Origin: a virus
Virus record (IMG/VR): IMGVR_UViG_3300043772_005292
Location: 1 to 20,576 of that record
DNA: 20,576 nt
Reading direction: 5' to 3' (one strand)
In this document: piece by piece, positions 2,111 to 17,846 of the stretch
How the letters are laid out: each line of letters begins with the position of its first letter
Numbering within the stretch: position 1 is the first letter of the stretch
Position numbers and translations under genes: made by a program
The notes under the pieces: generated by a model
Databases searched by the model: none
What the model was told of the DNA's origin: nothing
The model's input: only the letters and a program-made list of their open reading frames with translations

Positions 2111-3343
2111 ATGGACCAATTAACAAATTTTTATAAAAACAAATCAGAAGTTTTAGCAGAACAATTAAAAAATTTAGAAGCTAAAATTAATTCTTTGATT
2201 GAGCAGGCACCAGCTTCTACTTTTAAAGCTGGCTCAACAAAACCAGGGTCGATGTCAAATTTAGGAGCAAGTCCTGAAGCAATTGCAGCCGCCAACCAAC
2301 AACAGTCTGGAAAATTTGCAAATTTAGGAGCAAGTCCTGAAGCAATTGCAGCCGCCAACCAACAACAGTCTGGAAAATTTGCTGGTACTTTGGGCAGCAC
2401 GCCAAATCAAACCGGAAAAAGCACAGCGGAGTTGATGGCTGCTAATAAAGCAAAAAGAATGAAAGATTTGGCAAATGAACCCTCTCAAAGAGTAAGTCAG
2501 CAAATGTATTCTAAGCCAAAGCAGGCAGCAAAAGCACCTGCTCCACCACCACTTTTGGCAAGAGATCCAAATGTCCCAACTCCTCCCGCCAAAGGACAGC
2601 CAGCTCCGGTTCAAGGTGGAACAAAACCACCTGTAAAGGCACCAGCCCCACCGCCACTTTTGGCAAGAGATCCAAATGTCCCAACTCCTCCCGCACAAGG
2701 ATCACCTGCACCAGTTCAAGGTGGGACAAAGCCACAACCAACATCTATTGGTCCAAACTCAGATTGGGCAAATCAACAAAGAGCTTCATTCAATACAGGA
2801 ATGGTAAAAGATGCACTCAAAACAACAACACCAGCACAAACAACACAAACCAGTGGTGTTCCTAGTGTAGGTCAATTGTTGGGAACGCAACCTTCGCCAG
2901 CAAAACAACCAGCGTATAATTTTAATAATTCATCAAAAGATTTAATGAACCAAATTACAAATTTATTATCTGGATTTGGTGCTTCTAAACCAAAACCAGC
3001 AAAACCATCTATGTCTCGTTCTGAATTGGAGCAGGCAGCAATGAATCCAAGTGGTGCGGCAACACCAAAGCCAAAAGGATTGCCAGTAAATCCATACACT
3101 GGAAAAAATTATCAACAACCAGAAGCTGCACCAAATGCAGCAAGACCCGGAACAGATCCCTCATCTATGGCAGAAATTGGTGAAAGACAAAGAGCAGCAA
3201 ATACACCAACAGCATCTGGAAGAAAAGCATATGAAGAAATGCAAGCCAGACTTGGAGCAAAAGCAGATCCAGTAAACGTGGATCAATTCATGAAGTTTAG
3301 AGCTGACTCTACCGGAAAATGGTACGATTTCCCAAAGAAATAA
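2111..3343 (+). CDS. Low-complexity repeat protein, candidate internal head protein
   Basis: Function not recognised. The 410-aa protein starts with an amphipathic stretch (MDQLTNFYKNKSEVLAE, 1-17) followed by a coiled-coil-like helix to about residue 35. The rest is Ala/Pro/Gln/Lys-rich and probably disordered. It holds two tandem 21-aa repeats (50-91, NLGASPEAIAAANQQQ core) and two 35-aa Pro-rich repeats (141-210, APPPLLARDPNVPTPP core). The last 40 residues (DQFMKFRADSTGKWYDFP) look folded. The 21-aa repeat also occurs, almost base for base, in the 4894 gene. The N-terminus ends in LAE, similar to T4 prohead protease sites, so packaging inside the head is an inference. SD GAGGA precedes the ATG; a late box lies at 2086. 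A structural tail or scaffold role cannot be excluded. Confidence 0.85.
   Translation: MDQLTNFYKNKSEVLAEQLKNLEAKINSLIEQAPASTFKAGSTKPGSMSNLGASPEAIAAANQQQSGKFANLGASPEAIAAANQQQSGKFAGTLGSTPNQTGKSTAELMAANKAKRMKDLANEPSQRVSQQMYSKPKQAAKAPAPPPLLARDPNVPTPPAKGQPAPVQGGTKPPVKAPAPPPLLARDPNVPTPPAQGSPAPVQGGTKPQPTSIGPNSDWANQQRASFNTGMVKDALKTTTPAQTTQTSGVPSVGQLLGTQPSPAKQPAYNFNNSSKDLMNQITNLLSGFGASKPKPAKPSMSRSELEQAAMNPSGAATPKPKGLPVNPYTGKNYQQPEAAPNAARPGTDPSSMAEIGERQRAANTPTASGRKAYEEMQARLGAKADPVNVDQFMKFRADSTGKWYDFPKK
2258..2383 (+). repeat. Tandem 63-bp repeat (two copies) inside the 2111 gene
   Basis: Copies at 2258-2320 and 2321-2383 are identical except for the final base. Each encodes 21 residues. A third copy lies at 6115-6177 in another gene. 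Confidence 0.97.
2531..2740 (+). repeat. Tandem 105-bp Pro-rich coding repeat (two copies)
   Basis: Copies at 2531-2635 and 2636-2740 encode 35-residue units differing at a few positions. The central stretch covering LLARDPNVPTPP is identical at DNA level. Confidence 0.93.
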
Positions 3344-3362
3344 TAATTTAAAAACAAAAATT

Positions 3363-3394
3363 AAAAATCCTTCCTGTTAAAGGGAGGATTTTTT
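3363..3394 (+). terminator. Rho-independent terminator after the 2111 gene
   Basis: A stem of about 10 bp (AAATCCTTCC with GGGAGGATTT, one T-G pair) around TGTTAAA ends in six T residues, 20 nt after the stop codon. Confidence 0.85.
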
Positions 3395-3402
3395 CATAAA
3401 TA
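3395..3402 (+). promoter_or_regulatory. Late promoter box CATAAATA before a hairpin RNA
   Basis: The box directly follows a terminator U-run. The start expected six bases downstream (about 3408) coincides with the base of the long hairpin at 3409-3495. No ATG-started gene begins here. Confidence 0.5.
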
Positions 3403-3408
3403 TTTTAG

Positions 3409-3495
3409 TCAGCGGCGGTGGGGTAGTTCCACGCATTCCTTTTGGGCCAATCGAAGTATACGCTCATCGTAATGCTCAGGAACCACCGCTGCTGG
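3409..3495 (+). ncRNA. Candidate structured small RNA (long imperfect hairpin)
   Basis: The intergenic stretch 3395-3512 has no ATG-started gene. It is GC-rich and folds into nested stems: 3409-3420 with 3484-3495 (12 bp, including wobbles), 3426-3430 with 3479-3483 (5 bp, after a GGGTA bulge) and 3433-3437 with 3471-3475 (5 bp). A loop of about 33 nt contains a possible CGA/TCG stem. One frame across it is open (about 33 codons, ...PRIPFGPIEVYAHRN..., stop TAA 3503-3505) but lacks ATG, GTG or TTG in a suitable place. It may be a phage small RNA, a relic coding fragment or a replication or processing element. No U-run terminates it. Confidence 0.4.
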
Positions 3496-3501
3496 CCAAG
3501 G

Positions 3502-3509
3502 TATAAATA
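3502..3509 (+). promoter_or_regulatory. Late promoter box TATAAATA for the resolvase gene
   Basis: Exact T4 late consensus. The expected start near 3515 falls inside the first ATG (3513) and 7 nt before the in-frame ATG at 3522, which favours the second ATG if this promoter is used. Confidence 0.65.
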
Positions 3510-3512
3510 TAT

Positions 3513-4061
3513 ATGTTCTATATGTTAGTAGGTGTTGATTATTCGATAACTTGCCCTTGCCTTTGTCTTTATGACGAACGCAAAGAATTTAAATTTGAAA
3601 ATTGTTTGTTTTACTATTTAACAAATACTAAAAAATTTACAAATAAAGTATTCCCGAATATAAAGGGAGAATCTTTTCAAGACTACGAACAGGATGTAGA
3701 CCGTTTTGACAGCATTTCTGAGTGGGCCTTAAAACTTTGTATTGGGGCCTCAGATGTCGCTGTTGAGGGCTATTCTTATGGATCAAAAGGTAAAGTTTTT
3801 AATCTTGCCGAAAATATGGGAATCTTTAAGCATAAGCTCTATAAGGCCGCGATTCCTCTGACGGTCATTGAGCCGTCTAAAGCCAAGAAACTCGCTACGG
3901 GCAAAGGTAATGCTGATAAAGCCCTAATGTATGAAGCCTTCAGCAAAGAAACAAATACAAATTTACTTCAAAAATTTGAGCAAAAAACTTTGTCAAATCC
4001 GGTAACTGATATTGTGGACAGTTACTTTATATTAAAATCGTTGATAGCCAGCAAAAATTAA
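3513..4061 (+). CDS. RuvC-like Holliday junction resolvase
   Basis: Predicted RNase H-fold endonuclease that cuts branched DNA, probably clearing recombination and replication intermediates before packaging. This is the job done in T4 by the unrelated endonuclease VII. Of 182 residues the four acidic positions fit RuvC: Asp9 in VGVDYS, Glu85 in VEGYSYGSKG, then Asp166 and Asp169 in DIVDSY. The stretch EPSKAKKLATGKGNADK (120-136) is the usual basic TGKGNADK region of this family. Start is uncertain: ATG 3513 or ATG 3522 (MLVGVDYS). The late box at 3502 and most family N-termini favour 3522. Its TAA overlaps the stop of the convergent 4058 gene in a shared TTAA. Confidence 0.85.
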   Translation: MFYMLVGVDYSITCPCLCLYDERKEFKFENCLFYYLTNTKKFTNKVFPNIKGESFQDYEQDVDRFDSISEWALKLCIGASDVAVEGYSYGSKGKVFNLAENMGIFKHKLYKAAIPLTVIEPSKAKKLATGKGNADKALMYEAFSKETNTNLLQKFEQKTLSNPVTDIVDSYFILKSLIASKN

Positions 4062-4363
4062 CGAACTATTCTTCCGGGTTTCATTTTTACGCTATTATCC
4101 AATTTTTCATGGAAACGCTTTGGAACCTGGCCACTTGATTTAATTTTATCAATTACTTCTTTAAATTGACTTCCAACTACTTTTTGCGGACATAATGTCA
4201 TATCCATTGCAAGCGATGGGGTTGATGCACCCCAATCTTTTACAACTTTCTTTTTGTTGCAACTTGGACAAGGTTTTTTGGTCGGAAGATCCCTGTCGTT
4301 ATAATTTAAAATTTCATCAAATGTGTGACTACATTTTTCACAACGAAAAGCATAATTAGGCAT
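4058..4363 (-). CDS. Small FmdB-type zinc-ribbon protein
   Basis: The 101-aa protein begins MPNYAFRCEKC and holds two CxxC pairs (Cys8/Cys11 and Cys32/Cys35) about 20 residues apart, the layout of FmdB-like zinc ribbons. The remaining 60 residues are basic and of unknown fold. Such proteins are often found in phages; a role in DNA, RNA or protein binding is inferred, not shown. Its ATG overlaps the end of the HNH gene by 8 nt, so the two are translationally coupled. The stop shares TTAA with the convergent resolvase gene. Confidence 0.8.
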   Translation of the reverse strand: MPNYAFRCEKCSHTFDEILNYNDRDLPTKKPCPSCNKKKVVKDWGASTPSLAMDMTLCPQKVVGSQFKEVIDKIKSSGQVPKRFHEKLDNSVKMKPGRIVR

Positions 4364-4853
4364 TGTTTGGTCTCTTAAAAGTAATTAGCATATCTTCAAA
4401 CAAGAAACCATATGAAGGTTCTTTTGGTTTCTTTAACAAAGGCATGCTAGCTTCTTTTGGTGTTCTATTTCCCTTGGTTAAATTGCATTTTTTGCATGCT
4501 GCTACCAAATTAGTCCAAGAAAACCCCCCACCTTTACATTTTGGAATAATATGATCAATAGTGGCAGTTTCATCGCATAAAGTTTTTCCACAATATTGGC
4601 AGCAATATTGGTCTCTTTTAAAAATATTTTTTCTATTCGGTGCTACTTTTTTGTATGGCAAACGAATATAATATTTTAATATTAAAATTTTTGGAATTCT
4701 TACAATTTTTGAGACAGAGACAACTTCATAATATTCTTGTGCTGTCTCATCGATCCAAACTTTATCTTTAGAAAGAAGCTTAAAAGCTTTGGCGACAGTG
4801 ATAATATTTAAAGGAGTGTTGTCTTGATTTAACAGGAGTACCTGTTTCTTCAT
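4356..4853 (-). CDS. HNH endonuclease
   Basis: The 165-aa protein belongs to the common HNH family with an N-terminal LLLNQDNTPLN segment and a C-terminal treble-clef nuclease. Zinc cysteines are Cys85/Cys88 (CQYC) and Cys120/Cys123 (CKKC). Catalytic Asp100-His101 sits in TIDHIIP, and Asn115 lies in WTNL. The TPKEASMPLL tail is also typical. It may be a free-standing homing-type or DNA-processing nuclease. The frame is open further upstream (to 4895), but a TATAAATA box lies at 4864-4871 on this strand and a family-typical start (MKKQVLLLN) follows it, so 4853 is preferred. It heads a two-gene minus-strand unit with the zinc-ribbon protein, inserted among plus-strand late genes. Confidence 0.88.
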   Translation of the reverse strand: MKKQVLLLNQDNTPLNIITVAKAFKLLSKDKVWIDETAQEYYEVVSVSKIVRIPKILILKYYIRLPYKKVAPNRKNIFKRDQYCCQYCGKTLCDETATIDHIIPKCKGGGFSWTNLVAACKKCNLTKGNRTPKEASMPLLKKPKEPSYGFLFEDMLITFKRPNNA

Positions 4854-4863
4854 ACCTTTTAAG

Positions 4864-4871
4864 TATTTATA
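4864..4871 (-). promoter_or_regulatory. Late promoter box TATAAATA (minus) for the HNH gene
   Basis: Exact T4 late consensus on the minus strand. The predicted start near 4858 leaves a 5-nt leader before ATG 4853. It is back to back with the plus-strand box at 4876. Confidence 0.6.
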
Positions 4872-4875
4872 TAAT

Positions 4876-4883: not shown

Positions 4884-4893
4884 TTTTACAGCC

Positions 4894-6507
4894 ATGGATA
4901 ATAAAAAAGATAAACAATTTTACTGGGAAGTCAAGGATTTCTTGACAAAAAAACCTAACTTTAACGTGAAACCTAAGACAGAATCAGTAGTTAATACTGT
5001 TAAAAGTTTGCTAGAAACCAGCAAACCAAAACCAGCCCCCACTGTTTCTTATAATGAAAATATGACATCGGCTGTCAAAAAAGCAATCAATAAGTCGCAA
5101 GAAATAAAAAATAATGGGACGCCAAGTATAGTTGCTTTTACAAAAAACATTGCAGGCAATCCATTTCGTTCTTTGACTGAATCTGTTAAAAAAATATACG
5201 AGCAAGATGAAGAAAAATTTAACCAAGACACGCTTCAAACTAGTGCAAGAGAATTGGCAGATATCCAAACACAGCTCAGAGACATTGATCCAAATAATGC
5301 CACACCGGAACAAAGAAAACAGTATGTAAGTTTAAGGGATCAAGAAGCTGCTGCACAAGCTACTAGAGATAAACAATTAGAATTACAAAAACAAGACGAA
5401 GAGGAAACGGAAGAGGCAGAAGCACAAGTTGCGGGATCTACTATAAAAACAACTAGTACCGGTGCAAGATATGGTGTAAAACCTGACTTTGTAAAAGAAA
5501 GAGAAGCACAGGCAGCACAAGCGAAACCGGCAACAGCTGGAGTTGATACTGAAGGGCCTGCCGTTCCTACTGCAGATGAAGAAAGAGAAGCCGCAGCCAG
5601 AGCGCAAAAAGAAAAAGAAGCAGCTGATGCAGCAAAAGCAACAGAGAAAAAAGAACCAACCGAGGATGAAAAATTCTCATCTGCAAGAACAGATTACTAC
5701 AAAAAACAAAATGCAAAAAAGAAATTAGAAGCAGAACAACGTCTTGCTGCAATTGAACAGCTAGACACTAGCAAAATGAGTGAAAGTGGAAGAATGGCTG
5801 TTGCAAGAAATAAGATGAAATTTCAACAACAACTTCGCGGCGACATGGATATGAGCGATAGTGATATTGCTAAAAGAGTTTCAGGTGATTTAAAATATAG
5901 AAACGATACACAGGCTAAACAGAAAGAAAAAATAAATTTACCACCAGAATTAGCTCGTCCAGCGTCGGGTCAAAGTTATCAGGAGTGGGATAAAAAAAGA
6001 AACGAATTTATTGCTGCGGAAAGATCTAAGAGAGGTCTTCCACAAGTATCTGCATCTGAAGCAGCTTCCCGTGCGGCTGGAAAAACTCCATCAACAAAAC
6101 CAGGGTCGATGTCAAATTTAGGAGCAAGTCCTGAAGCAATTGCAGCCGCCAACCAACAACAGTCTGGAAAATTTGCTGGTACTTCGGGCAGCACCCCAAA
6201 ACCAACAGGCACTAGCACCACTGCTTCTACGCCTCCAACTACTTCTACATCTTCTACTCAAACTGGTTCACAAGTTTCACAAAAAACAAATAATTTATTT
6301 GGAGGCACGCAACAAAAACCAACGGGTAGCTTTGAACAAGCTGCATCAAAGCCTGCGTCATTGTCTGGCTTTGTTCCATCGTCTGAAAATGATAATCTTG
6401 AACCAGGTTTTAGAGAATTGAATCAAATGAATCCTCAAGCATCATTTTCATCAATAAAAACAGCTCAACCAATAAAACAAACAAAAGCATCTTCTTACAG
6501 GATATAA
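4894..6507 (+). CDS. Ala/Gln/Lys-rich coiled-coil repeat protein, probably virion-associated
   Basis: Function not recognised. The 537-aa protein is highly charged. Residues about 100-170 and 225-310 are strongly helical and coiled-coil-like (repeated A/E/K/Q-rich heptads). The C-terminal third is Ser/Thr/Pro-rich and probably disordered. Residues 400-435 contain the 21-aa NLGASPEAIAAANQQQ unit found twice in the 2111 gene, with flanks also shared, which shows the two genes are related by recent duplication or exchange. The N-terminus (MDNKKDKQFYWEVKDFL) does not end in a clear LxE site, unlike its neighbours. Upstream is a late box. The 6509 gene starts one base after its stop, so these form one operon with 7801. 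A virion or internal head role is inferred from context. Confidence 0.82.
   Translation: MDNKKDKQFYWEVKDFLTKKPNFNVKPKTESVVNTVKSLLETSKPKPAPTVSYNENMTSAVKKAINKSQEIKNNGTPSIVAFTKNIAGNPFRSLTESVKKIYEQDEEKFNQDTLQTSARELADIQTQLRDIDPNNATPEQRKQYVSLRDQEAAAQATRDKQLELQKQDEEETEEAEAQVAGSTIKTTSTGARYGVKPDFVKEREAQAAQAKPATAGVDTEGPAVPTADEEREAAARAQKEKEAADAAKATEKKEPTEDEKFSSARTDYYKKQNAKKKLEAEQRLAAIEQLDTSKMSESGRMAVARNKMKFQQQLRGDMDMSDSDIAKRVSGDLKYRNDTQAKQKEKINLPPELARPASGQSYQEWDKKRNEFIAAERSKRGLPQVSASEAASRAAGKTPSTKPGSMSNLGASPEAIAAANQQQSGKFAGTSGSTPKPTGTSTTASTPPTTSTSSTQTGSQVSQKTNNLFGGTQQKPTGSFEQAASKPASLSGFVPSSENDNLEPGFRELNQMNPQASFSSIKTAQPIKQTKASSYRI
6091..6197 (+). repeat. Dispersed copy of the 2234-2400 repeat block
   Basis: Bases 6091-6114 equal 2234-2257, and 6115-6177 equals the 63-bp unit (matching the second copy at 2321-2383). 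The next 20 bases match 2384-2403 with one change. Reading frame is conserved. Confidence 0.95.
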
Positions 6508-6508
6508 T

Positions 6509-7804
6509 ATGAACTACTTAACAGAACATTATAAAAATATTTGTGAATCTCTTGATGCTCAAAAAACTATTCTTGAGTACATGATTTTTATAAAAGAAGA
6601 CGAGAACCTTGATAATGTATTAAGACGCTTAAGGCAAGGTGGCATGCACCAGCTCTCCGCAGATGATAAAAAATTGTTAGATGCTGCTAGAGATGAGATG
6701 CGTTTGCAGTCGGGATCTAAAGAGAATCTTGGACAAATGTCAGCAAAATATATTTCACAAAAAGCTCAAAAAGCTTCTCGCACTTCTGATTCGGCACAAA
6801 GAAGAATGAGAACTCAAGAAAGAGCCAGAGCAAATGCAAATTCCACAGCTAAAGGAACCGTTAGCTCATCATCGACACAGGGCACAGCAAATGCTGCAGA
6901 CATAAAAACCCCATCTTCGTGGGGTGACCCAAGCATTCGTTATAAAGGTGTACGAAATTATTTTTCAAATTCAAATTTAAGTCAAAGTGCCAAAGATTTA
7001 GAAAATTTAACTAAACCTACAAGTTATGGGATGCCAGAAACAAAAGGCTCCGGAACACCACCACAAGAACCACCTGTGCAAGCAAAACCAAAACCTTCTG
7101 GAACTCCACCAAAATATCCACAAGAGCCGCCAGTACAAGCAAAACCAAAACCTTCTGCACCTAAATCAAAACTCTCTTTTCCAAAAAAATTAACGGGGTT
7201 CGGTGTCGGTTTGGCGACAGGGTGGGGTGCCGATGAAGCCACACGATCAGCTTTAGGTGCTCTTGGTGTAGAAGATGAAAATATAAAAGATATTGCTGGT
7301 ACTGCAGTTGGAACTGGTGTTGGTATGGCAACAGACATCGCAACAACCTCTGCACTCGGTGGTGCAGGGTTAGGTGCAGCTGCAGGATTGGGAGCAGCTG
7401 CAGTTCTTCCATTTGCCGCAGCAGGAGCTGCTGGCGCAGTATTAGGAAAAGGATTAGAAAAAGTCGGTGAAATAGAATATAAACTTCCAGGAGAAACAGG
7501 AAACGCAAAAAGCACGCACCAAAGATTTGGGGAAAAATTATATCAATATAACCCACTTGTTCGCAGTGCAACAAATATTCTAGCCGGAAATGCTTTAACT
7601 GCAGGAATGGGCGACTTGAATGAAAAGCCAAAAGGTGTTGCAGGCGGAGATCCAAGTAAGATAGCTCAAAATCAAAGAGAAGATGAGGAAGAACAAGCAG
7701 AAATAGCAAGAAAACAGGCTGCAGAACAATCAAGAGCTGAAGGGCGTTCTGCTCGTATTGCACAAAAAGTAGCAGAATTAAAAGCAAAAGAGAGTTCACA
7801 ATGA
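6509..7804 (+). CDS. Gly/Ala-rich membrane-segment protein, candidate ejected head protein
   Basis: Function not recognised. The 431-aa protein has an amphipathic N-terminus (MNYLTEHYKNICE, 1-13, then Ser14) resembling a cleavable capsid-targeting peptide. A basic helical region follows (70-115), then two Pro-rich repeats with core QEPPVQAKPKPS (186-197, 205-216). Residues 227-313 are Gly/Ala-rich and hydrophobic, with small-residue spacing (GTAVGTGVG, GGAGLGAAAGLGAAA) like glycine-zipper membrane segments. The C-terminus is a charged helix. Proteins of this make-up occur among phage internal proteins that insert into the host envelope during DNA ejection; that role is inference. SD AGGA lies 6 nt before ATG. 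The stop overlaps the 7801 start by ATGA. Confidence 0.82.
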   Translation: MNYLTEHYKNICESLDAQKTILEYMIFIKEDENLDNVLRRLRQGGMHQLSADDKKLLDAARDEMRLQSGSKENLGQMSAKYISQKAQKASRTSDSAQRRMRTQERARANANSTAKGTVSSSSTQGTANAADIKTPSSWGDPSIRYKGVRNYFSNSNLSQSAKDLENLTKPTSYGMPETKGSGTPPQEPPVQAKPKPSGTPPKYPQEPPVQAKPKPSAPKSKLSFPKKLTGFGVGLATGWGADEATRSALGALGVEDENIKDIAGTAVGTGVGMATDIATTSALGGAGLGAAAGLGAAAVLPFAAAGAAGAVLGKGLEKVGEIEYKLPGETGNAKSTHQRFGEKLYQYNPLVRSATNILAGNALTAGMGDLNEKPKGVAGGDPSKIAQNQREDEEEQAEIARKQAAEQSRAEGRSARIAQKVAELKAKESSQ

Positions 7805-8688
7805 AAAATAAACTAGTTGAAGAACTGTTGGAGCAAAGATACCAAGAAAATTTAAATGAATTCGTTGGAGCTGCAGTTCGTGCAGTTGGAAGAGCTTTAA
7901 GTCAAGGAGCAAAACAGGCAACTAAAACAGCAACACGTACTGCAACAGAAACTGGTGGAAGAACAGCCGTAAGACCAACTATGACTACACCAAAAAATGT
8001 AGTTGTAGTAAAACCAAAACCAGCTACAGCCCCATCGCCGTCTACAGCTCCCGTACCAACAGAAGTCCCAACTCAAATACCGACAACAAAGCCAGTTGAA
8101 ATACCAACAACACAACCAACGGTTCCTCCAGCAAAACCAGCTGAAATTCCTGTAGTACGACCAAAGCCAGAAGAGTTACCGGGGTATAGACCAAAACCAG
8201 ACGAGATCCCAGGCCAAAAGCCAAAACCAGACGAGATCCCAGGCCAAAAGCCAAAACCAGATGAGATCCCAGGCCAAAAGCCAAAACCAAAACCTGATGA
8301 GGTTCCATCTCCAAAACCAAAACCAGAGGAGATTCCTTCTACAAGACCAAAAACTCCTCCAAAAGAAGAGCCAAAGACTCCTCCAAAAGAAGAAACTAAA
8401 ACTCCTCCAAAAGATGAAACTGGGACTCCTCCAAAAGAAGAAACGAGAACTCCTCCAAAAGAAGAAACAAAGCCTCTTCCAAAAGAAGAGCCAGTAAAAC
8501 CATCTGCACCACCAATAGCCGGTGTGACAAATTTAATACGCCGAACGAGAAGTCCAAAAATTGATATTGGTGGTAGTTCGATGGATTCTTATAGAACAGG
8601 TGAACAAGGATTTCTTTTACCAGCTTATGTAAATTTGGGAAGAGAAGCTATTGGATTAAGATATGCAACGGCCTTGCGTCTTATATAA
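7801..8688 (+). CDS. Pro/Lys/Glu tandem-repeat protein, candidate internal or stalk virion protein
   Basis: Function not recognised. The 295-aa protein starts MKNKLVEELLEQRYQ, with LVE and LLE motifs like its neighbours' N-termini, followed by a short Ala/Arg/Thr-rich basic segment. Residues about 60-235 are an extended polyproline-type rod of tandem units, KPKPDEIPGQ (131-160) then TPPKEET (about 185-232). This composition recalls TonB linkers and PEVK springs. The last 50 residues (DIGGSSMDSYRTGEQGFLLPAYVNLGR) look folded. It overlaps the 6509 gene by ATGA, so translation is coupled. The repeats make copy-number change likely. Confidence 0.8.
   Translation: MKNKLVEELLEQRYQENLNEFVGAAVRAVGRALSQGAKQATKTATRTATETGGRTAVRPTMTTPKNVVVVKPKPATAPSPSTAPVPTEVPTQIPTTKPVEIPTTQPTVPPAKPAEIPVVRPKPEELPGYRPKPDEIPGQKPKPDEIPGQKPKPDEIPGQKPKPKPDEVPSPKPKPEEIPSTRPKTPPKEEPKTPPKEETKTPPKDETGTPPKEETRTPPKEETKPLPKEEPVKPSAPPIAGVTNLIRRTRSPKIDIGGSSMDSYRTGEQGFLLPAYVNLGREAIGLRYATALRLI
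8191..8280 (+). repeat. Three tandem 30-bp repeats in the 7801 gene
   Basis: Units at 8191-8220 and 8221-8250 are identical; 8251-8280 differs at one base. Each encodes ten residues (PKPDEIPGQK). Confidence 0.97.
8353..8496 (+). repeat. Six tandem 24-bp repeats in the 7801 gene
   Basis: Units start at 8353, 8377, 8401, 8425, 8449 and 8473. The first five begin ACTCCTCCAAAAGA; the sixth is diverged. They encode eight-residue TPPKEETK-like units. Confidence 0.95.
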
Positions 8689-8712: not shown

Positions 8713-9381
8713 ATGTACATTGAAAATTATAAAAAGTTTACGCATAAACCAATAGACATAGAAGGTTCTTTAAAAGAAGTTTCAGAAAATGGAAAACGTT
8801 TTTATGAAACTCCAGAGGGAATCTTTCCCAGTGTTACAACTGTAGTTGGTTTTGAAAAACAACAATTTTTTGCTGAATGGAGACAGAGAAATCCAGAAGA
8901 AAGCAAAAGAGTAACATCAAGGGGAACAAAATTCCATTCTTTAATAGAAAAATATTTAAAAAATGAAGATATAGATTATGATAATCTCCAATCTGGAAAC
9001 AAAGCTTTATTTTCTTTATTGAAACCAGAGCTAGACAAGATAGACAACATAATTGCTCTTGAAAGTCCTTTATGGTCAAAAACTTTAAAACTGGCCGGAA
9101 GAACAGATTGTATTGCAGAATATGATGGCAAACTTACAATAATAGATTTTAAAGCCAGCACAAAAGAAAAAAGAAAGAAAGATATCGATAATTATTTTGC
9201 TCAGGCAACTGCATATGCCCTAATGTTCCAAGAAAGAACGGGAATAATAGTTGACAATTTTGCAATATTAATTGCATGTGAAGATGGCTTAAAACAAGTT
9301 TTTGAGGGAAATCCACTCCACTATGTTAAACATTTACATAAATTAGTAAAAAAATACAGGAACGCAAATGGAATATCGTGA
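8713..9381 (+). CDS. PD-(D/E)XK exonuclease, MGME1/RecB-nuclease-like
   Basis: Predicted metal-dependent DNA exonuclease of the PD-(D/E)XK superfamily, like the MGME1-type nucleases known in T4-like cyanophages. The 222-aa protein carries the motifs in order: FPSVTTV near 38-44, His75 in GTKFHSLIE, Glu117, Asp132 in AGRTD, Asp145-Phe-Lys147 in IIDFKAS and Gln164-x3-Tyr168 in QATAYA. This is the RecB/Cas4-type set. Probable role: trimming of single-stranded ends in replication or recombination. No SD is visible before ATG 8713; an upstream sigma70-like promoter would give a very short leader. Its last 14 nt overlap the next gene. Confidence 0.87.
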   Translation: MYIENYKKFTHKPIDIEGSLKEVSENGKRFYETPEGIFPSVTTVVGFEKQQFFAEWRQRNPEESKRVTSRGTKFHSLIEKYLKNEDIDYDNLQSGNKALFSLLKPELDKIDNIIALESPLWSKTLKLAGRTDCIAEYDGKLTIIDFKASTKEKRKKDIDNYFAQATAYALMFQERTGIIVDNFAILIACEDGLKQVFEGNPLHYVKHLHKLVKKYRNANGIS

Positions 9382-9970
9382 ACAGAGAACACTGGAAGAA
9401 GCTGTCAACACAAGAGGAAGTCGTTTATGGACTAAAATGAACGATAATTCCAAATCCGAAAAAAACAGGCAACTTTTTGTTGAAGAGAATGGTGGCTTTT
9501 TTGTTCGTGAAGGTCGCTATTGGAAATGGAATACTCCAGTAAAAGAAAAGAATGGTTATTGGTTAAAACGAGCAGATAGCGGAGAAAAAGTCTTTTTTGA
9601 AAATATGACTAAATTCGGAAATGAAAATGGGCTTACCGCAGTAAAAATATGCGAACTCTTGAATGGAAAAAGAAAAACCTATAAAGGTTGGACTGCAGTT
9701 GAAATAAGAGAAGTGAAGGATAGCGTTGGCTCCAACGAGAAGTTAAAGGAACCCAAAAAAGATAAGATTAAGATAACTATGGGTGCCGTTTTACAAGACA
9801 TTACTACTGGTGAAATTTTAAATATTTCAAGCATAGCAGATTTTGCCAAAGACAATAATTTAGATTATGCAAATTTAAGAAAACTTGCGGTAGGCAAGGC
9901 AAAAACATATAGAAACTTAAAATTATTCAATCCAATTGAAAAATACAAGGCTCTTGAAGAGCCTAAATAA
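9368..9970 (+). CDS. Tandem helix-turn-helix (NUMOD1/IENR1-like) DNA-binding protein
   Basis: The 200-aa protein holds two related modules: residues 76-108 (FENMTKFGNENGL...LLNGKRKTYKGW) and 151-187 (ISSIADFAKDNNL...LAVGKAKTYRNL). Both fit the short HTH repeats found at the DNA-binding end of homing endonucleases and as stand-alone phage proteins. No nuclease motif is seen, so it may be a regulator or a remnant of a homing enzyme. Residues 35-70 are rich in aromatic residues (FFVREGRYWKWNTP) and may be a third, degenerate binding unit. ATG 9368 has AGGAA upstream at a good distance and overlaps the exonuclease gene, so the two are coupled. The stop codon lies within the next late box. Confidence 0.8.
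   Translation: MEYREQRTLEEAVNTRGSRLWTKMNDNSKSEKNRQLFVEENGGFFVREGRYWKWNTPVKEKNGYWLKRADSGEKVFFENMTKFGNENGLTAVKICELLNGKRKTYKGWTAVEIREVKDSVGSNEKLKEPKKDKIKITMGAVLQDITTGEILNISSIADFAKDNNLDYANLRKLAVGKAKTYRNLKLFNPIEKYKALEEPK
9962..9969 (+). promoter_or_regulatory. Late promoter box CCTAAATA for the 9977 gene
   Basis: CTAAATA-type box overlapping the TAA of the previous gene. The predicted start near 9975 leaves a 2-nt leader before ATG 9977. Confidence 0.5.
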
Positions 9971-9976
9971 TTGGAG

Positions 9977-12373
9977 ATGAACTTTAAAAGCCTTTTATCA
10001 AAATTATACGAAGCAAGAGACAATAAAGAAGCCTTTACTCGGACTGGTGAAGCCACCAAAAAAGAAAGAGAAAAGAGCAAATCTGTTGATTCTCGGTCAA
10101 AAGATGCTGCCAGAAAGCGCGCAGAGCGGGCAAGAGAGATGCCCCGTGAAAGAAAGCCTAAACAAGAATTAGTGAAAGAAGTTTTAGGCGTAAAAACTAG
10201 AGGTGGAAGAGTTCAGCTTATTTTTAAAGATTCTTTCAATAAAGAACAACACACAAAAATTGGAAAAGAAAATATGTCAATTGCTGATGCTCAACAATTG
10301 ACAAAAGATCCAAAATTTGAACAAACAAGAGCATCAAAACTTCTCTTTGGAAACGTAAAAGAAAAAGAAAAATCAGACAAGGGACCAAAAAAAGAAGGAA
10401 AGTCTGAGCCAAAAAAAGAAACTAAACCAAAACAAGAAGACGAAAAGAAAAAAGAAGGCCAGCAAAAAGAAGGCCAGGAAAAAGAAGAAAAACCAAAAGC
10501 CAGAAGACTTAGCAAAGAAGAGATATTTCAATCTCTTTCACAAATGACACCAGATCAATTGCTGGGTGTTCCTCCCGATCTCCGTCAAGAGTTTTTCCAG
10601 ACGCAAAGAAAGCCGCCATCAAATAATGATTTTGATGAGATGACATACGAGACACTAAGCGTAAAATTTGGTCTTAATCCAGTATCTTCTACCCCATACA
10701 ACCAACAAGTATTGAACGCTATTATTTTCTTGGCAAAGATGAAAATGGGTGCAAGCGACCAGGAGATGCAGACAATCAGTGCAATGAATCCAAAGGGAAT
10801 GGATTTTACACGTGGAGCATTCTACACAGCAAAGAAAATACTTTCCCAATTAGGCGAAGAATGTATTCAATCAATGATGTCAACAATTGAAAGTGGTGGA
10901 ACACCAATGAGCAGCGATGGTGTTCCAGATATGGCTTGCGGTGATTATAAATTCAAAGTTTCTGCTGGTGGTGAAATAAGTCTATCTACTACACAGTTTG
11001 ATCAAAAGAACAAATCATTTAAAGGTTATGTTGCATCTGCTTTAGCAACCGCTTTGGGATCTCCTGAAACAATTGCTAGAGACAATGCTGTAAAATCAGT
11101 TTTTGAAAAAGGATCACAGATTAGTTCTGGGTATAGTTCTGAGCTGATCCCACCAGAAGCATTGAGTTTGATTTTAAATGATGAAAAGCTTCTCACAAAA
11201 TTTAAAAATACAAAAATACAAGATCAAAATGGAAACGATCTCGGAACAATTATAGATTCTGAAAATAATTTAAATCCAAAAGCATCTTTGGATAACTACT
11301 ACAAAGAGTGGCAAACCTTGTCAAAAGATCTTGTAAAAGGAAAAGAAACTCCATTTAAAAGCGAAATATCAAAACAAGTATTAAAAAATGTTCTTCGTGG
11401 AGATAATATCGTAGATCCAAAAAATGCACCGACACACTTAATTACAGTAAATGGCGTATTCCCGATGACGGATGATTGGTTTGATATTGTATCTAAGCAA
11501 TCTGAGCTTGATATAAAACCAGCAAAAACAATTTTAAGTTCAAAAAACGTAACCAACTATAAACCTTCAGCAGCTGAAATGTTGAAAAAATATAGTGTTG
11601 TAGTAGAACAAAAAGAAGAAAAAACGCCTTCTCTTTCAAAAATGATTATTCCTGCTGAGAGCATAAATCCTGCTCAGTTTATGGTAAATCATATAATGAA
11701 TAATTATGAGTTTCAACTAAACTCAAGTTTATTACCCGGATTCAAACCAAAAGATTTAAATTCTGTTGATTTTAATTATGTTAAAATAGGTAAAAAGACA
11801 ATAAAAATTCCTGTAGAAAAAGAACAAAATATTTCTTTGGCAATGCAGGAAAATGCAGGTCTCATAGTAAATGATTTGCTTTTAGAATCTTTTACAAATA
11901 ATTTTGTACTTCACACATTATTAAAAACTACATTGGTAAATGATACAGAGGCATCATTTTTGAACATGGGTGAACAAATTTTGTTGGAAAATGAAATAAG
12001 ACCTATGGAGTTGCAACAAATATATAAAAATGTAATGGAAAGAGTTGAAAACGAACCTTTCCGTCTTTTGTGGATTGTAAACATATTGAATGCAATCGAT
12101 GAAGAGTATGAAAGAGACTACAAACAAGAATACAAAAATTACCACGGAAAACCAAAACAGAGAAAAGAAAGAGCTGCTAGAACTGCTGCAAGAGAATTGA
12201 TGATAAAAAAGGGAAGAGCAAAAAAAGGTGACGGCAAAGACATAGATCACAAAAAGCCTCTTCGACACGGTGGTTCTAAGGGCATAAATAATTTACGTGT
12301 CAGAAATCGTTCAGAAAACAGATCTGACAATGGACACCACAAAGGTGAAAAACAAAATAAGGATTGGAAATGA
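9977..12373 (+). CDS. Large head-type protein with C-terminal HNH-like module
   Basis: The 798-aa protein begins MNFKSLLSKLYE then Ala13, a near-ideal capsid-targeting peptide with an LYE/A cleavage site. Residues 20-65 are strongly basic. Residues 115-180 are a Lys/Glu/Pro-rich linker. Residues about 185-700 look folded; the stretch around LRQEFFQTQRKPPSNNDFD and FGLNPVSSTPYNQQV resembles a conserved protein of marine T4-like phages that I cannot name. The last 44 residues carry DIDHKKPLRHGGSKGINNLR and a following NR...HHKGE pattern, an HNH-type module preceded by a basic helix. The Cys residues of a typical zinc HNH are missing. An in-frame TTG at 9971 exists, but ATG 9977 gives the shared N-terminal motif. 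A virion-packaged nuclease is possible. It overlaps the next gene by ATGA. Confidence 0.82.
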   Translation: MNFKSLLSKLYEARDNKEAFTRTGEATKKEREKSKSVDSRSKDAARKRAERAREMPRERKPKQELVKEVLGVKTRGGRVQLIFKDSFNKEQHTKIGKENMSIADAQQLTKDPKFEQTRASKLLFGNVKEKEKSDKGPKKEGKSEPKKETKPKQEDEKKKEGQQKEGQEKEEKPKARRLSKEEIFQSLSQMTPDQLLGVPPDLRQEFFQTQRKPPSNNDFDEMTYETLSVKFGLNPVSSTPYNQQVLNAIIFLAKMKMGASDQEMQTISAMNPKGMDFTRGAFYTAKKILSQLGEECIQSMMSTIESGGTPMSSDGVPDMACGDYKFKVSAGGEISLSTTQFDQKNKSFKGYVASALATALGSPETIARDNAVKSVFEKGSQISSGYSSELIPPEALSLILNDEKLLTKFKNTKIQDQNGNDLGTIIDSENNLNPKASLDNYYKEWQTLSKDLVKGKETPFKSEISKQVLKNVLRGDNIVDPKNAPTHLITVNGVFPMTDDWFDIVSKQSELDIKPAKTILSSKNVTNYKPSAAEMLKKYSVVVEQKEEKTPSLSKMIIPAESINPAQFMVNHIMNNYEFQLNSSLLPGFKPKDLNSVDFNYVKIGKKTIKIPVEKEQNISLAMQENAGLIVNDLLLESFTNNFVLHTLLKTTLVNDTEASFLNMGEQILLENEIRPMELQQIYKNVMERVENEPFRLLWIVNILNAIDEEYERDYKQEYKNYHGKPKQRKERAARTAARELMIKKGRAKKGDGKDIDHKKPLRHGGSKGINNLRVRNRSENRSDNGHHKGEKQNKDWK

Positions 12374-13533
12374 TCTCTAAAAATATAAAATTGATCACAG
12401 AAAAAGTATACGAAAACTCTGGCCTAGGCAAATGGTTTAACAAAGAATCTGCCGGGGGTGGACCGGGCTGGGATCGTTACAATACCAAGGGAGAGCGTGT
12501 CGGAAAATGTGGTGACGCAAAAGAGGGTGAATCGTATGCCGCATGTTTGAGCCGTCAAAAGGCAGACAAACTTGGAAAAGAAAAAATAGGATCATTTGTA
12601 AGAAGAAAAAGAGCTGCACAAAATAAAGCCGGAAGAGGCGATAAAGGCGATGTAAAAGGAAAAGGTAAAAAGCCTGTATTTGTAAAAACTGGTGTTACTG
12701 AAGTTAAAGAATTTTTTGAAGTGTTTACAGTTTTAAACGAATGCTTTATTCCGTTGACTTTTAATTCAATTGAAGCAAAAGATCTATTGCCATGTGATTT
12801 GATTATAAACGAAGCTGGTAAAATATTAAATGTAAACGGAATAGAACTAAATGAAGAAAAATACGAAATAAGTTTTACTGACGAAGAAGGTAATGAAGTT
12901 AATGAGATATTTGAACCTTCTACTGTAATGGGGTTTGTTGATACTAATGAAGGAACTGAAAAAGACGATGAAGGAAAATTTGTTGAGATTTACGAGGATG
13001 ACAATAAAAAAGTAAAACTCAATAAAATCATGAAGGGCGATGTTAAAAAATACAAAGTTTATGTAAAAAATGACAAAGGAAATGTAGTCAAAGTAAACTT
13101 TGGTGACCCAAACATGGAAATAAAAAGAGACGACCCAGATCGTCGCAGAAACTTCAGAGCTAGACACAATTGCGATACTCCGGGACCAAGATGGAAAGCA
13201 CGCTACTGGGCTTGTAAGACATGGAGCACACAATCAGTTACTTCTATGTTGAAAGAAGAAATTGAAATACTTGGTGAAGCAGCAAAGAACAAAGCAAAGG
13301 ATCCTAAAAAATGGAGTTCTTGCATTGCTCAAGCTAAGAAAAAGTTTGATGTTTATCCATCAGCATATGCCAATGCATGGGCAGCAAAATGCTACAAGAG
13401 CAAGGGTGGAAAATGGAAAAAACTTTCAGAGGACATTGCATTAGCAGGGCTAAACAAACTTTATTCAAAATCTTATAATAAAAATTTTTATGGGTTGATG
13501 GATTTAAGAAAAAACAAATTTTTTCAGTCATAA
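12370..13533 (+). CDS. Multi-module Cys-motif phage protein (three short conserved modules)
   Basis: The 387-aa protein starts MISKNIKLITEKVYEN, again a capsid-targeting-like peptide. Module 1 (19-92) reads WFNKE...GGGPGWDRYNTKG with Cys47/Cys59 and a basic GRGDKGD tail. A middle acidic domain (about 115-215) is unknown. Module 2 (227-284) is KYKVYVKND...VNFGDPN then DPDRRRNFRARHNC and GPRWKARYWAC, with Cys268/Cys282. Module 3 (310-352) is DPKKWSSCIAQAKKKFDVYPSAYANAW with Cys318/Cys341 and a basic end. I recognise modules 2 and 3 as recurring small domains in phage proteins (module 3 resembles DUF5872), without known biochemistry. The arrangement suggests tandem nucleic-acid- or capsid-binding units. 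ATG 12370 overlaps the previous stop; the in-frame TTG at 12364 is less likely. Confidence 0.83.
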   Translation: MISKNIKLITEKVYENSGLGKWFNKESAGGGPGWDRYNTKGERVGKCGDAKEGESYAACLSRQKADKLGKEKIGSFVRRKRAAQNKAGRGDKGDVKGKGKKPVFVKTGVTEVKEFFEVFTVLNECFIPLTFNSIEAKDLLPCDLIINEAGKILNVNGIELNEEKYEISFTDEEGNEVNEIFEPSTVMGFVDTNEGTEKDDEGKFVEIYEDDNKKVKLNKIMKGDVKKYKVYVKNDKGNVVKVNFGDPNMEIKRDDPDRRRNFRARHNCDTPGPRWKARYWACKTWSTQSVTSMLKEEIEILGEAAKNKAKDPKKWSSCIAQAKKKFDVYPSAYANAWAAKCYKSKGGKWKKLSEDIALAGLNKLYSKSYNKNFYGLMDLRKNKFFQS

Positions 13534-13536
13534 ATA
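13529..13536 (+). promoter_or_regulatory. Late promoter box CATAAATA for the 13548 gene
   Basis: The box contains the stop codon of the previous gene. The predicted start near 13542 leaves a 6-nt leader and would cut the SD-like AAGGAAG (13538-13544) out of the message. Confidence 0.55.
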
Positions 13537-13547
13537 AAAGGAAGACT

Positions 13548-14102
13548 ATGAAATTCAAAGAATTAATCTCAAATATCCAAACATTGGCCGAAAATTCAGG
13601 AGAGCATACCGAAGGCGGTGGTGGCCTCTATTCAGGTCAACCAAACCCAGGGCCATCTGCCTTAACAGATAAGGGAACATTTAACCTTGCTCTGCCTAGA
13701 TCCATTGATGCAATTAATGCATTGCTTCACACCTTTTCTTATAAAGATTACATCGACCCAGATGGAGTTATGTCGATTGTAAAACAAAAATTAAACCACT
13801 TCGGTCTTGACTTTGCATGCAAAGGAAAAGTTCAAGATGGTGATAATATGTACGAATTGGTGCAATACGGAAGCACCCAATTGGGAGTTTATGGGCAAAA
13901 TCCTTATGATGACGTAAATGAAAAAGGATTCTCTCAAGGAGATGGAATCAAAGAAAAATTGGGTCACTCCTTAGCATTGTCTGTTAATGTTCAAAAGATG
14001 CCAACAAGTCTTCGTAAAGTGACAATGATGATCGTGCCAACAGCTACATCATCCTATAATACTGGTGATATGGCGGGCGCAGATTGTGGTTGTTCACATT
14101 AA
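13548..14102 (+). CDS. Small probable head protein of unknown function
   Basis: The 184-aa protein starts MKFKELISNIQTLAE then Asn16, matching the capsid-targeting-like pattern. A Gly-rich stretch follows (GEHTEGGGGLYSGQPNPGPS), then a compact domain (about 40-170) with a DPDGVMSIVKQKLNHFGLDF helix pair and beta-like segments ending MMIVPTATSSY. The last residues are ADCGCSH, with a Cys-x-Cys. I do not recognise the fold. It has its own late box and an SD-like AAGGAAG. The following gene overlaps or abuts its 3' end. Confidence 0.82.
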   Translation: MKFKELISNIQTLAENSGEHTEGGGGLYSGQPNPGPSALTDKGTFNLALPRSIDAINALLHTFSYKDYIDPDGVMSIVKQKLNHFGLDFACKGKVQDGDNMYELVQYGSTQLGVYGQNPYDDVNEKGFSQGDGIKEKLGHSLALSVNVQKMPTSLRKVTMMIVPTATSSYNTGDMAGADCGCSH

Positions 14103-14508: not shown

Positions 14509-14514
14509 TTTTTG

Positions 14515-16041: not shown

Positions 16042-16042
16042 A

Positions 16043-16064
16043 AAAACCCCCTTTCGGGGGTTTT
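16043..16064. terminator. Bidirectional Rho-independent terminator
   Basis: A nine-bp stem, AAAACCCCC / GGGGGTTTT, with loop TTTC. T-runs follow on both strands (longer on the minus strand). It separates the convergent 14515 and 16066 genes. Confidence 0.92.
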
Positions 16065-16065
16065 A

Positions 16066-16284
16066 TCAATCCTGAATAAAATTTTTCTTTTTGCAGCAAT
16101 TGGGCTTAGAGCACATGTTTGCTTTTCTTGCTTCATTTATAATTTTTTCATGTGCATCATCCCAGCCAGCCGTCCATTCTTGGATGTAAACGGGATTTTC
16201 ATTATTAAACGTGTGTTTTGCAACCCCTCTCATGCGAGATTGAAATCCTTCACTATATGCTGAACCTGGTTTATAGTCGCTCAT
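16066..16284 (-). CDS. Small RMF-like domain protein
   Basis: The 72-aa protein shows YKPGSAYSEGFQSRMRG, then NPVYIQEWTAGWDDAHEK (Trp37, Gly40, Trp41, Ala44). This spacing is like the ribosome modulation factor family, where an A..G...R..G helix is followed by W..GW.dA. Many phages carry such small proteins; ribosome binding is not shown. The Cys-rich, basic tail (Cys58, Cys63, Cys64 with KKK) is unusual for RMF. SD AAAGGAG precedes the ATG, which overlaps the stop of the 16281 gene (ATGA). Last gene of a minus-strand operon that ends at the bidirectional terminator. Confidence 0.78.
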   Translation of the reverse strand: MSDYKPGSAYSEGFQSRMRGVAKHTFNNENPVYIQEWTAGWDDAHEKIINEARKANMCSKPNCCKKKNFIQD

Positions 16285-16706
16285 TTTTGCTCCTTTGGAT
16301 CAACTGGAATAATTTGAATCTGATTTATTAACTTGTCAAGAGCTTTTACGTGGGCAAATTGCTCAGTGATTGCGAGATATCCACGGATTTCAATTAACTT
16401 CATGTATTCATCTTGACTAAAAGTCATGACTTTAGTTTTCTGTGGTCTTTGTGGCTTATTTCTCGGTTGCTTGTTTGGATTTGGTTTATTGTTTAGTTGT
16501 TTAGACCATTGCTTTAAAATGTCATCCATGTTTAAATACTCTTGCATGTGTTCAAAATAATCTTCATTATTTTGCATTTTATTCCACATGTTTTTAAATT
16601 TTGGATTAAATGGACCGTAATAGAAGAATCCATTGTTTGGATTGCTTGGGTCATTATCGTCGCCATTTTGCCAATTTTGAAAATCGTTATAGTCTGAATT
16701 ATTCAT
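16281..16706 (-). CDS. Hypothetical Asn-rich small protein
   Basis: Not recognised. The 141-aa protein is Asn/Asp-rich at its N-terminus (MNNSDYNDFQNWQNGDD), with an aromatic segment (GFFYYGPFNPKFKNMW). A Lys/Pro/Asn linker (about 73-92) then leads to a helical C-terminal part (MTFSQDEYMKLIEIRGYLAITEQFAHVKALDKLIN). SD AAGGA lies before the ATG. It is the fourth gene of the minus-strand unit starting at 17335, eight bases after the 16715 gene. Confidence 0.75.
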   Translation of the reverse strand: MNNSDYNDFQNWQNGDDNDPSNPNNGFFYYGPFNPKFKNMWNKMQNNEDYFEHMQEYLNMDDILKQWSKQLNNKPNPNKQPRNKPQRPQKTKVMTFSQDEYMKLIEIRGYLAITEQFAHVKALDKLINQIQIIPVDPKEQK

Positions 16707-16714
16707 GTGTTTCC

Positions 16715-17014
16715 TTAGTTAGTATCGAAGAACTGTTCATATACAATTTTTCCACGACTGTCGGTTACAGAAATATACCGAACATGACGTTCAATTGCAT
16801 CTGAAATATTTAGTGGATCGTTTGGGCCAAAAGACAGATGCTTGATCCAAGCGGAGCATCCACCAAGAGAAATTCTAACTTCATTGCCTGACGGATCAGA
16901 CCCATAAAAATCAAATGTAGATTTTTCTCCGTCATAATACGTAAAGAAACAATCAATTGAGTCATACTTTTTTCTTACGTCACTTAAAGGTAATTGTGTG
17001 TCAGTTTTAGCCAT
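16715..17014 (-). CDS. Hypothetical small beta-rich protein
   Basis: Not recognised. The 99-aa protein begins MAKTDTQLPLSDVRKKYDSID and shows alternating hydrophobic strands (CFFTYYDGEKSTFDFYG, EVRISLGG, RYISVTDSRGKIVYEQFF). No catalytic motif is visible. Its ATG overlaps the end of the 57-aa gene upstream by 8 nt, showing translational coupling within the minus-strand operon. Confidence 0.75.
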   Translation of the reverse strand: MAKTDTQLPLSDVRKKYDSIDCFFTYYDGEKSTFDFYGSDPSGNEVRISLGGCSAWIKHLSFGPNDPLNISDAIERHVRYISVTDSRGKIVYEQFFDTN

Positions 17015-17180
17015 TGGGCAATCTTTCTTGTTTTACGGTATCTGGAAGACGGCCAATTGAATCCAACTTTCTTAGGGTTGAAACTTTAGCTTCCATCAAA
17101 CTTTTGTTTCTATTGTTGCGAATTCTCTCTTTACGCTTTCTATGTCTGCGAGCTGTTACACGTTGCTTTGAATTAGGCAT
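17007..17180 (-). CDS. 57-aa highly basic protein
   Basis: A short gene with SD GGAG six bases before ATG. The first half is almost all Arg/Lys (QRVTARRHRKRKERIRNNRN). The second half (MEAKVSTLRKLDSIGRLPD) looks helical. It probably binds nucleic acid; the target is unknown. It lies between two coupled genes in the minus operon and overlaps the 16715 gene by 8 nt, which supports it as real. Confidence 0.72.
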   Translation of the reverse strand: MPNSKQRVTARRHRKRKERIRNNRNKSLMEAKVSTLRKLDSIGRLPDTVKQERLPNG

Positions 17181-17194
17181 ATTTTACTCCAAAA

Positions 17195-17335
17195 TTAAGT
17201 TTTCTTTGATTTCTTAGATTTCTTAGTTACCTTACGCTTTTTACTAAAAATAGCATCATAATTTTTACCATAAACTTCCATATTCACCTGTCTAGGTGAA
17301 TCTCCTTTACCTGCGCCATTGTTTCCGTAGTCCAT
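17195..17335 (-). CDS. 46-aa protein with Lys-rich tail
   Basis: A short gene reading MDYGNNGAGKGDSPRQV at the start and ending in KKRKVTKKSKKSKKT. The tail resembles DNA-, RNA- or membrane-binding basic tails. It is the first gene of the minus operon. A sigma70-like promoter places the transcript start at or within a base or two of its ATG. It contains a perfect 8-bp inverted repeat at 17282-17301. The frame is clean and the downstream SD of the next gene follows its stop closely, but the gene is small and could be missed or false. Confidence 0.6.
   Translation of the reverse strand: MDYGNNGAGKGDSPRQVNMEVYGKNYDAIFSKKRKVTKKSKKSKKT
17282..17301. repeat. Perfect inverted repeat ATTCACCT-GTCT-AGGTGAAT
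   Basis: Eight-bp arms with a 4-bp spacer inside the 46-aa gene, about 35-55 bp downstream of its predicted start. It could be an operator for a dimeric regulator or an RNA hairpin. Confidence 0.6.
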
Positions 17336-17342
17336 AATATTT

Positions 17343-17370
17343 ACTATATCCTATGTTAAAGAAAAGTCAA
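17343..17370 (-). promoter_or_regulatory. Sigma70-like promoter for the minus-strand operon
   Basis: On the minus strand TTGACT (17370-17365), a 16-bp spacer, then TATAGT (17348-17343). The expected start is about 17336, immediately before ATG 17335. It abuts the plus-strand late box at 17372. Confidence 0.5.
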
Positions 17371-17371
17371 G

Positions 17372-17379
17372 TATAAATA
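17372..17379 (+). promoter_or_regulatory. Late promoter box TATAAATA for the 17385 gene
   Basis: Exact T4 late consensus. The start expected six bases after the last A is 17385, the A of the ATG itself, so the message would be leaderless. No SD lies between box and ATG. Confidence 0.65.
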
Positions 17380-17384
17380 TTTTT

Positions 17385-17846
17385 ATGAAAAATAATAAAG
17401 GTTATTACAGTTGGATTCATACATTGAATAATTCTGCCATCAGTGCACATAAAAAGGGAATTGAAATGCTTGCAGAAAGCAATGGGAATGATCCAAAAAG
17501 TGCGGGTGGTGATGACTCTGCATATGAACGATTGAAAGCAATGAAAGATGCAGAAAAAATGGCAGACCTTGCAAAAATAAAAGGTCCAATAGATTTTAAA
17601 CCAGAAGGATCTGCACAAGATGTAGAAAATGATGCTGAAAACGGTTTCATTGATGATCCTCCACTTTCAAGACTCCCAAGTTACCCTATTGCAGCTCAGG
17701 CAAGACAAGAAACCGCAGACTTGGAAAGAGAAGAAGATTGGAAAGAAAGTGAAGATGCAAGACATTGGAGTGATTACACCGGAAGAACCGGTGAAAAAAT
17801 GTATGAGTCGGTTTCTCAAAAAATTAATCGATTTCTAAAAAATTAA
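17385..17846 (+). CDS. Small acidic protein, candidate internal head protein
   Basis: Not recognised. The 153-aa protein has a hydrophobic/aromatic N-terminus (MKNNKGYYSWIHTLNNSAIS) ending IEMLAE then Ser32, fitting the N-terminal cleavage pattern of its neighbours but longer. The rest is acidic and mostly helical or disordered (RLKAMKDAEKMADLAKIKG, ETADLEREEDWKESEDARHW). The mRNA is predicted to start at its ATG. Its TAA shares TTAA with the stop of the convergent 17843 gene. Confidence 0.75.
   Translation: MKNNKGYYSWIHTLNNSAISAHKKGIEMLAESNGNDPKSAGGDDSAYERLKAMKDAEKMADLAKIKGPIDFKPEGSAQDVENDAENGFIDDPPLSRLPSYPIAAQARQETADLEREEDWKESEDARHWSDYTGRTGEKMYESVSQKINRFLKN

Follow-up and report, generated by a model that had tools for sequence, protein, structure and literature searches.

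Genes of the window and its relatives

The window, the whole stretch of DNA analysed here, is a 20.6-kb IMG/VR fragment and derives from an uncultured phage of T4-like (Kyanoviridae-like) type. A second contig, G008, represents the same phage (99.9%) and extends ~8.7 kb beyond the right end of the window, and ~110 loci taken from related contigs form the comparison set. The DUF7207 protein of the window has its closest named matches in Methylophilales phage Melnitz and in T4-like cyanophages. Genes and their products are referred to below by start position in the window.

A preliminary description had listed seven otherwise unlike proteins (2111, 6509, 7801, 9977, 12370, 13548 and 17385), each beginning with a short peptide that ends in (L/I/V)xE, and proposed that these peptides direct the proteins into the capsid. 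All seven open reading frames are present and each N-terminus carries the motif (Table 1). The HNH-like end that had been described is likewise found, at the C-terminus of 9977; PADLOC, Pfam and PHROGs searches with the leader proteins of the window gave no other clear function. Judged from sequence, six of the window proteins (2111, 6509, 7801, 9977, 13548 and 17385) are leader proteins, with 12370 and 4894 uncertain. The gene at 9368–9970 has a weak I-HmuI-like NUMOD match and is conserved in ~100 related loci, and the reverse strand of G008, past the end of the window (19924–20796 of G008), encodes an additional leader-like protein (MINFNDHLNFSPNPQDN...).

Table 1. Leaders, genes and promoter element in the window; a slash marks a candidate cleavage position.
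Feature	Coordinates	Strand	Basis
Leader A of 2111 (residues 1-31, candidate end LIE31/Q; LAE17 also)	2111..2203	+	Leader A profile, orthologues
Putative internal head protein, repeat-rich, 410 aa	2111..3343	+	ORF; late promoter core upstream (2087-2093)
Conserved N-terminus MDNKxxRQFYWEVKxF (putative leader), divergent body; possible cargo	4894..6507	+	Orthologues; late promoter core upstream
Leader A of 6509 (residues 1-30, candidate end IKE30/D; ICE13 also)	6509..6598	+	Leader A profile match
Putative internal head protein, 431 aa, hydrophobic Gly/Ala-rich stretch	6509..7804	+	ORF; no family match
Leader D of 7801 (residues 1-20, candidate end LNE20/F; LLE11 also)	7801..7860	+	Leader D profile
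Putative internal head protein, Pro-rich repeats	7801..8688	+	ORF; no family match
Leader E of 9977 (residues 1-12, MNFKSLLSKLYE/A)	9977..10012	+	LxE conservation; predicted helix
Putative internal head protein, 798 aa, HNH-like C-terminus (phrog_4590)	9977..12373	+	Late promoter core upstream (9963-9969)
Possible short leader ending ITE11/K	12370..12402	+	(L/I/V)xE-K-V-[YF] conservation
Cys-motif protein	12370..13533	+	C-terminal part related to Melnitz protein (E = 1e-14)
Leader E of 13548 (residues 1-15, MKFKELISNIQTLAE/N)	13548..13592	+	Conservation
Putative internal head protein, 184 aa	13548..14102	+	Melnitz homologue; late promoter core (13530-13536)
T4-type late promoter element TATAAATA	17372..17379	+	5 nt ahead of 17385 ATG
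Leader B of 17385 (residues 1-31, LAE31/S)	17385..17477	+	LxE at 24-36 in 37/42 of family
Putative internal head protein, 153 aa	17385..17846	+	ORF; orthologues

Among the relatives, G001 (135.8 kb) and G006 (126.3 kb) are large and encode both the major capsid protein gp23 and the prohead protease gp21 (PF03420), and a gp21-type protease is also found in Melnitz, S-CREM2 and S-SZBM1. The preliminary description had suggested looking for a gp21-like protease and a cleavage site in the major capsid protein. In G001 and G006, gp23 carries LTE/LYE near residue 55; gp21 is absent from the window, a fragment that ends short of that region.

Conserved leaders and the bare motif

The (L/I/V)xE motif is weak evidence by itself, being present in about 35% of internal stretches: at residues 8–35, [LIV]xE occurs in 41–53% of N-termini as against ~35% of segments from protein interiors, while 52% of non-leader proteins have [LIVM]xE at residues 8–45. 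With 35–52% of control stretches positive, the bare motif was dropped as non-specific. The true signal lies in N-terminal leaders that are conserved across orthologues in the ~110 related contigs. These fall into several distinct types, so that the single shared peptide originally envisaged is not borne out. The leader profiles match N-termini almost exclusively, and LxE falls within the range set for each leader in 47/57 leader A, 37/42 leader B, 31/44 leader D and 114/114 leader E proteins, against a background of 18–29%. A conserved (L/I)xE thus closes leaders A, B, D and E. The glutamate is frequently followed by N, E, Q, K or R instead of A, G or S. As to the seven cleavage sites first proposed, those of 9977, 13548 and 17385 stand, those of 2111, 6509 and 7801 are ambiguous, and VYE15 of 12370 does not hold.

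Leaders A, C and D each occur on otherwise non-homologous proteins (18, 19 and 11 body clusters respectively), as does leader E on two clusters, whereas leader B is essentially confined to one family. Across G001, G006, G005, G003 and the window, the pattern M.{1,2}F[KRQ].[FYL][LI] fits 26 N-termini, including two window ones; more than 2,000 methionines internal to the same proteins gave no match. Each of these four contigs has 12–15 called leader genes, about one tenth of called genes, a count that includes a few false leader-F calls and for G005 and G003 refers to partial contigs; in the near-complete relatives the gp21 protease is accompanied by ~14 leader genes apiece, ~10% of the genes called. 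The leader-F counts were set aside as evidence because its loose seed additionally drew in leader E, along with two or more false proteins.

Leaders A, D and B

Leader A, M[DN]xLTNxYKNxxExLQExVNxLE..LNE, is common to 2111 and 6509 and is a long amphipathic, coiled-coil-like helix; its profile has 57 N-terminal matches. LxE recurs at up to three places within it, the best final site lying near residue 30 (LxE at 24–42 in the 47 proteins above, followed mostly by A or D). LAE17 of 2111 and ICE13 of 6509 sit on this repeated LxE, and the better sites come later, at LIE31 and IKE30. The leader D profile has 44 matches, and 7801 offers two candidate sites, LLE11 and LNE20. In leader B the site LAE31/S of 17385 is well supported by its family, and the likeness among 17385 orthologues lies mainly in the first 32 residues. 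The conserved N-terminus of 4894 was absent from the earlier list. An 86-bp stretch, encoding the repeat STKPGSMSNLGASPEAIAAANQQQSGKFA, is identical in 2111 (2234–2319) and 4894 (6091–6176), and additional near-identical copies exist; from sequence identity, this is a recent exchange between neighbouring genes.

No likeness to the T4 leader is seen in leaders A, B or D, which also lack matches among the ORFs of T4, Melnitz, S-CREM2 and S-SZBM1, and leader A gave chance-level matches only when searched in named phages.

Leader E and the 12370 protein

Leader E, M[NK]FKxLL...LxE, is common to 9977 and 13548. The site LYE12/A of 9977 is supported, and that of 13548, LAE15/N, lies in a leader in which M1, K2, F3, K4, L6 and E15 are invariant in 23 sequences. 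In the 9977 structure model the leader is a helix set apart from the rest of the protein by a linker of low confidence, and the 13548 model, of low overall confidence, has residues 1–45 unstructured ahead of a folded core; both models fit a detachable tag and leave cleavage itself unproven. Fold searches with the two proteins returned HNH domains, viral proteins that are themselves uncharacterised, or weak matches; one of the weak matches, to a protein of 1134 aa with the name Acb1, is not relied on here. In Melnitz, the homologue of 13548 (E = 3e-8) begins MKNFKNHIAE, and both genes directly precede DUF7207. S-SZBM1 gp136, a virion protein encoded at the same gene position as 13548, was tested and is not homologous.

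VYE15 of 12370 was rejected, its glutamate being present in only 18/70 orthologues. All 70 orthologues carry (L/I/V)xE-K-V-[YF], which in the window copy is ITE11/K. The Melnitz protein related to the C-terminal part of 12370 starts MKKFSEIIEA, and a related cyanophage DUF6321 protein has no leader ahead of its DUF6321 domain.

Late promoters

A late-promoter core, [AC]TAAATA, is found in the 30 nt upstream of 31/51 leader genes but of only 2/57 replication and metabolism genes (P = 2e-11); for other genes the figure is 76/332. The window genes preceded by it are 2111, 4894, 9977, 13548, 14515 and 17385, and the remaining genes may be read through from upstream. The promoter sequences therefore point to late expression of the leader genes. 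Across the window, G001, G006, G005 and G003, the core lies exactly 5 nt ahead of the start codon in 42 cases, a spacing far commoner than any other distance. If the core works as in T4, many late mRNAs would start at or beside the AUG and be leaderless.

Relation to the T4 internal proteins

The first ten residues of T4 IPIII are sufficient for packaging, with targeting assigned to residues 4 and 7 and processing to residues 8 and 10 (review, PMC9026906). Leader C of the relatives fits this ten-residue kind of leader (MKTYQEFIAE). It is absent from the window, where leader E (9977 and 13548) is a near variant of it. A ten-residue profile (M..FK.FL.E) was trained on 17 type-C leaders of relatives, picked by a pattern requiring E at residue 10 and with no part played by T4, and run on 247 called T4 proteins. 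The best matches are gp61.1, IPI, IPII and IPIII, with gp24 sixth, and four known substrates (IPI, IPII, IPIII and gp24) are thus recovered in the top six of 247 (P about 1e-7). The top T4 match, above the known internal proteins, is gp61.1 (NC_000866, 18966–19130), an uncharacterised protein of 54 aa that begins MKTFKEFIKED...; on this sequence it is a possible overlooked internal protein.

Cargo and virion proteins

In an IMG/VR scan, the T4-like short form of the leader occurs on at least 31 body clusters and at least 69 proteins. Recognised cargo in the scan and in the relatives comprises SAM lyase, cytidylyltransferase, glucosaminidase, phage lysozyme (one with LysM), methyltransferase and acetyltransferase, all plausible as injected enzymes. 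Two leader-bearing proteins of G001 (10823–12316 and 128195–129082) have HExxH-like motifs (HEWTH and HELQH) and no family match, their sequences suggesting packaged metallopeptidases.

Five annotated S-CREM2 genes score above 5 bits with the leader profile (gp14, gp154, gp6, gp175 and gp13), and four of the five are in the published virion list of 52 proteins (P = 0.012, or 0.0016 without 24 structural proteins). They include gp14, a kinase, gp154, a cytidylyltransferase, and gp6, a SAM hydrolase; gp175 is not among the 52. S-SZBM1 gp140, the single virion enzyme of that phage, starts MRFRQFIIE/A, one residue shorter and resembling leader E of the window. Replication of the virion link in S-SZBM1 is weak, with gp191 and gp192 having strong leaders and being absent from its 30 detected virion proteins. 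The consulted passages of the two virion papers do not describe a leader, and in the literature searched cyanophages and capsid-targeting sequences are joined in one review only. Some proteins have stretches resembling a leader in their interior, namely LRFASFMAE in S-CREM2 gp12 and IKSFGNFVAE in Sf-CH8 gp72, and targeting or cleavage may therefore also take place at internal sites.

Interpretation

Conserved leaders on unlike bodies, late promoters, and gp21 with T4-like capsid genes in the relatives are observed together; the relatives' short leader resembles that of T4, and enzymes bearing that short leader have been detected in published virion work on a cyanophage. Taking the whole set together, we favour, with a probability of about 0.7, a T4-type internal-protein system that has been expanded and uses new variants of the leader. 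Late in infection, leader genes would be transcribed from T4-type late promoters, and an N-terminal helical leader of ~10–31 residues ending in (L/I)xE would bind the protein to the prohead core. A gp21-type prohead protease would then cut after the glutamate and the leader depart, and the mature proteins would remain in the head with the DNA, entering the next host along with it and acting against host defences or on envelope and metabolism. By this scheme the window's own proteins are predicted to be cleaved, packaged and ejected, and to function in the new host. Confidence is higher for 9977 and 13548, and lower for 12370. Several observations weigh against the scheme: leaders A, B and D are unlike the T4 leader, leader B is tied to a single family, S-CREM2 gp175 and S-SZBM1 gp191 and gp192 bear leaders yet are missing from the virion lists, gp21 is not encoded in the window, and the residue after the glutamate often departs from A, G or S.

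The main competing account is an assembly role without injection, the leaders being uncleaved oligomerisation or scaffold-binding helices of prohead-core or minor structural proteins. The coiled-coil-like length of leader A would suit it, as would the repeat-rich, acidic or basic composition of several window proteins, which recalls core proteins; late expression is compatible with it, and T4 core proteins are themselves cut at LxE-type sites (PMC9026906). We regard it as unlikely, given that the short leader matches those of the T4 internal proteins and is carried by enzymes (SAM lyase, lysozyme, glucosaminidase, methyltransferase, cytidylyltransferase) rather than core-like proteins. That the products are instead intracellular takeover factors, with N-termini addressing them to a membrane or replication body and virion detection reflecting lysate carry-over, a possibility named by the S-CREM2 and S-SCSM1 authors, is improbable: the promoters are late, not early, and the matching T4 leader is known to package proteins. 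Mere coincidence, a pick from N-termini in which (L/I/V)xE is common, draws on the control frequencies above and on the lack of conservation of VYE15, yet leaves orthologue conservation, the T4 profile result, promoter enrichment and virion data unexplained; for six of the seven it can be regarded as largely refuted already, and we give it almost no credence.

The capsid-targeting idea thus survives in altered form. The match to T4 IPI–III and gp24, the S-CREM2 virions, the late promoters and gp21 speak for it, but several leader families replace one peptide, LxE alone is uninformative, and of the seven sites one was wrong and three are ambiguous. Support for capsid targeting is strong but indirect. 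By analogy with T4, the number of injected proteins encoded in the window is probably unusually large, and by analogy with T4 and with the relatives' cargo their most likely role would be to counter defence or to alter the host early after injection.

A broader reading, to which we give slightly less than even odds, is that in T4-like phages of this uncultured group about one tenth of the genes encode head-packaged injected proteins, that a single prohead core and protease recognise the chemically distinct leaders A, B, D and F as well as the T4-type leaders C and E, and that the T4-type leader is a general label with which T4-like phages load enzymes such as kinases, wall hydrolases, SAM lyase and cytidylyltransferase. 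Were the favoured account correct, proteins injected by T4-like phages could be predicted from a short sequence profile, the puzzling enzymes in cyanophage virions would be explained, and many hypothetical late genes of uncultured phages would become candidate injected anti-defence or takeover proteins.

Comparison with known systems

The ejection proteins of phiKZ-like giant phages are also internal head proteins, and their N-terminal propeptides, which are cleaved off, are thought to target the head. In SPN3US the propeptides are mostly longer than 100 residues, with cuts such as AQE, AVE and ALE (PMC5694885), unlike the ~10–31-residue leaders ending in (L/I)xE and the T4-type PF03420 protease of the relatives, and the present proteins were accordingly not placed in that class.

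The short leader of S-CREM2 gp6, gp14 and gp154 and of S-SZBM1 gp140 is the same or nearly the same as that of the window phage's relatives, although these virion enzymes are not homologues of the window proteins. A close parallel in form is with T4 IPI, IPII and IPIII, in which a short N-terminal leader ending in xxE is likewise borne by proteins that share nothing else: only the leader is homologous among Ip1–3, and each inhibits different GmrSD restriction enzymes (PMC12373910). A gp21-type protease is common to both, here in the relatives, and the relatives' leader profile retrieves the T4 internal proteins. The differences lie in scale and variety, as T4 has three internal proteins plus Alt, compared with ~12–15 leader genes per large contig here, leaders A, B, D and F are ~20–35 residues long and dissimilar to that of T4, and the cargo differs too.
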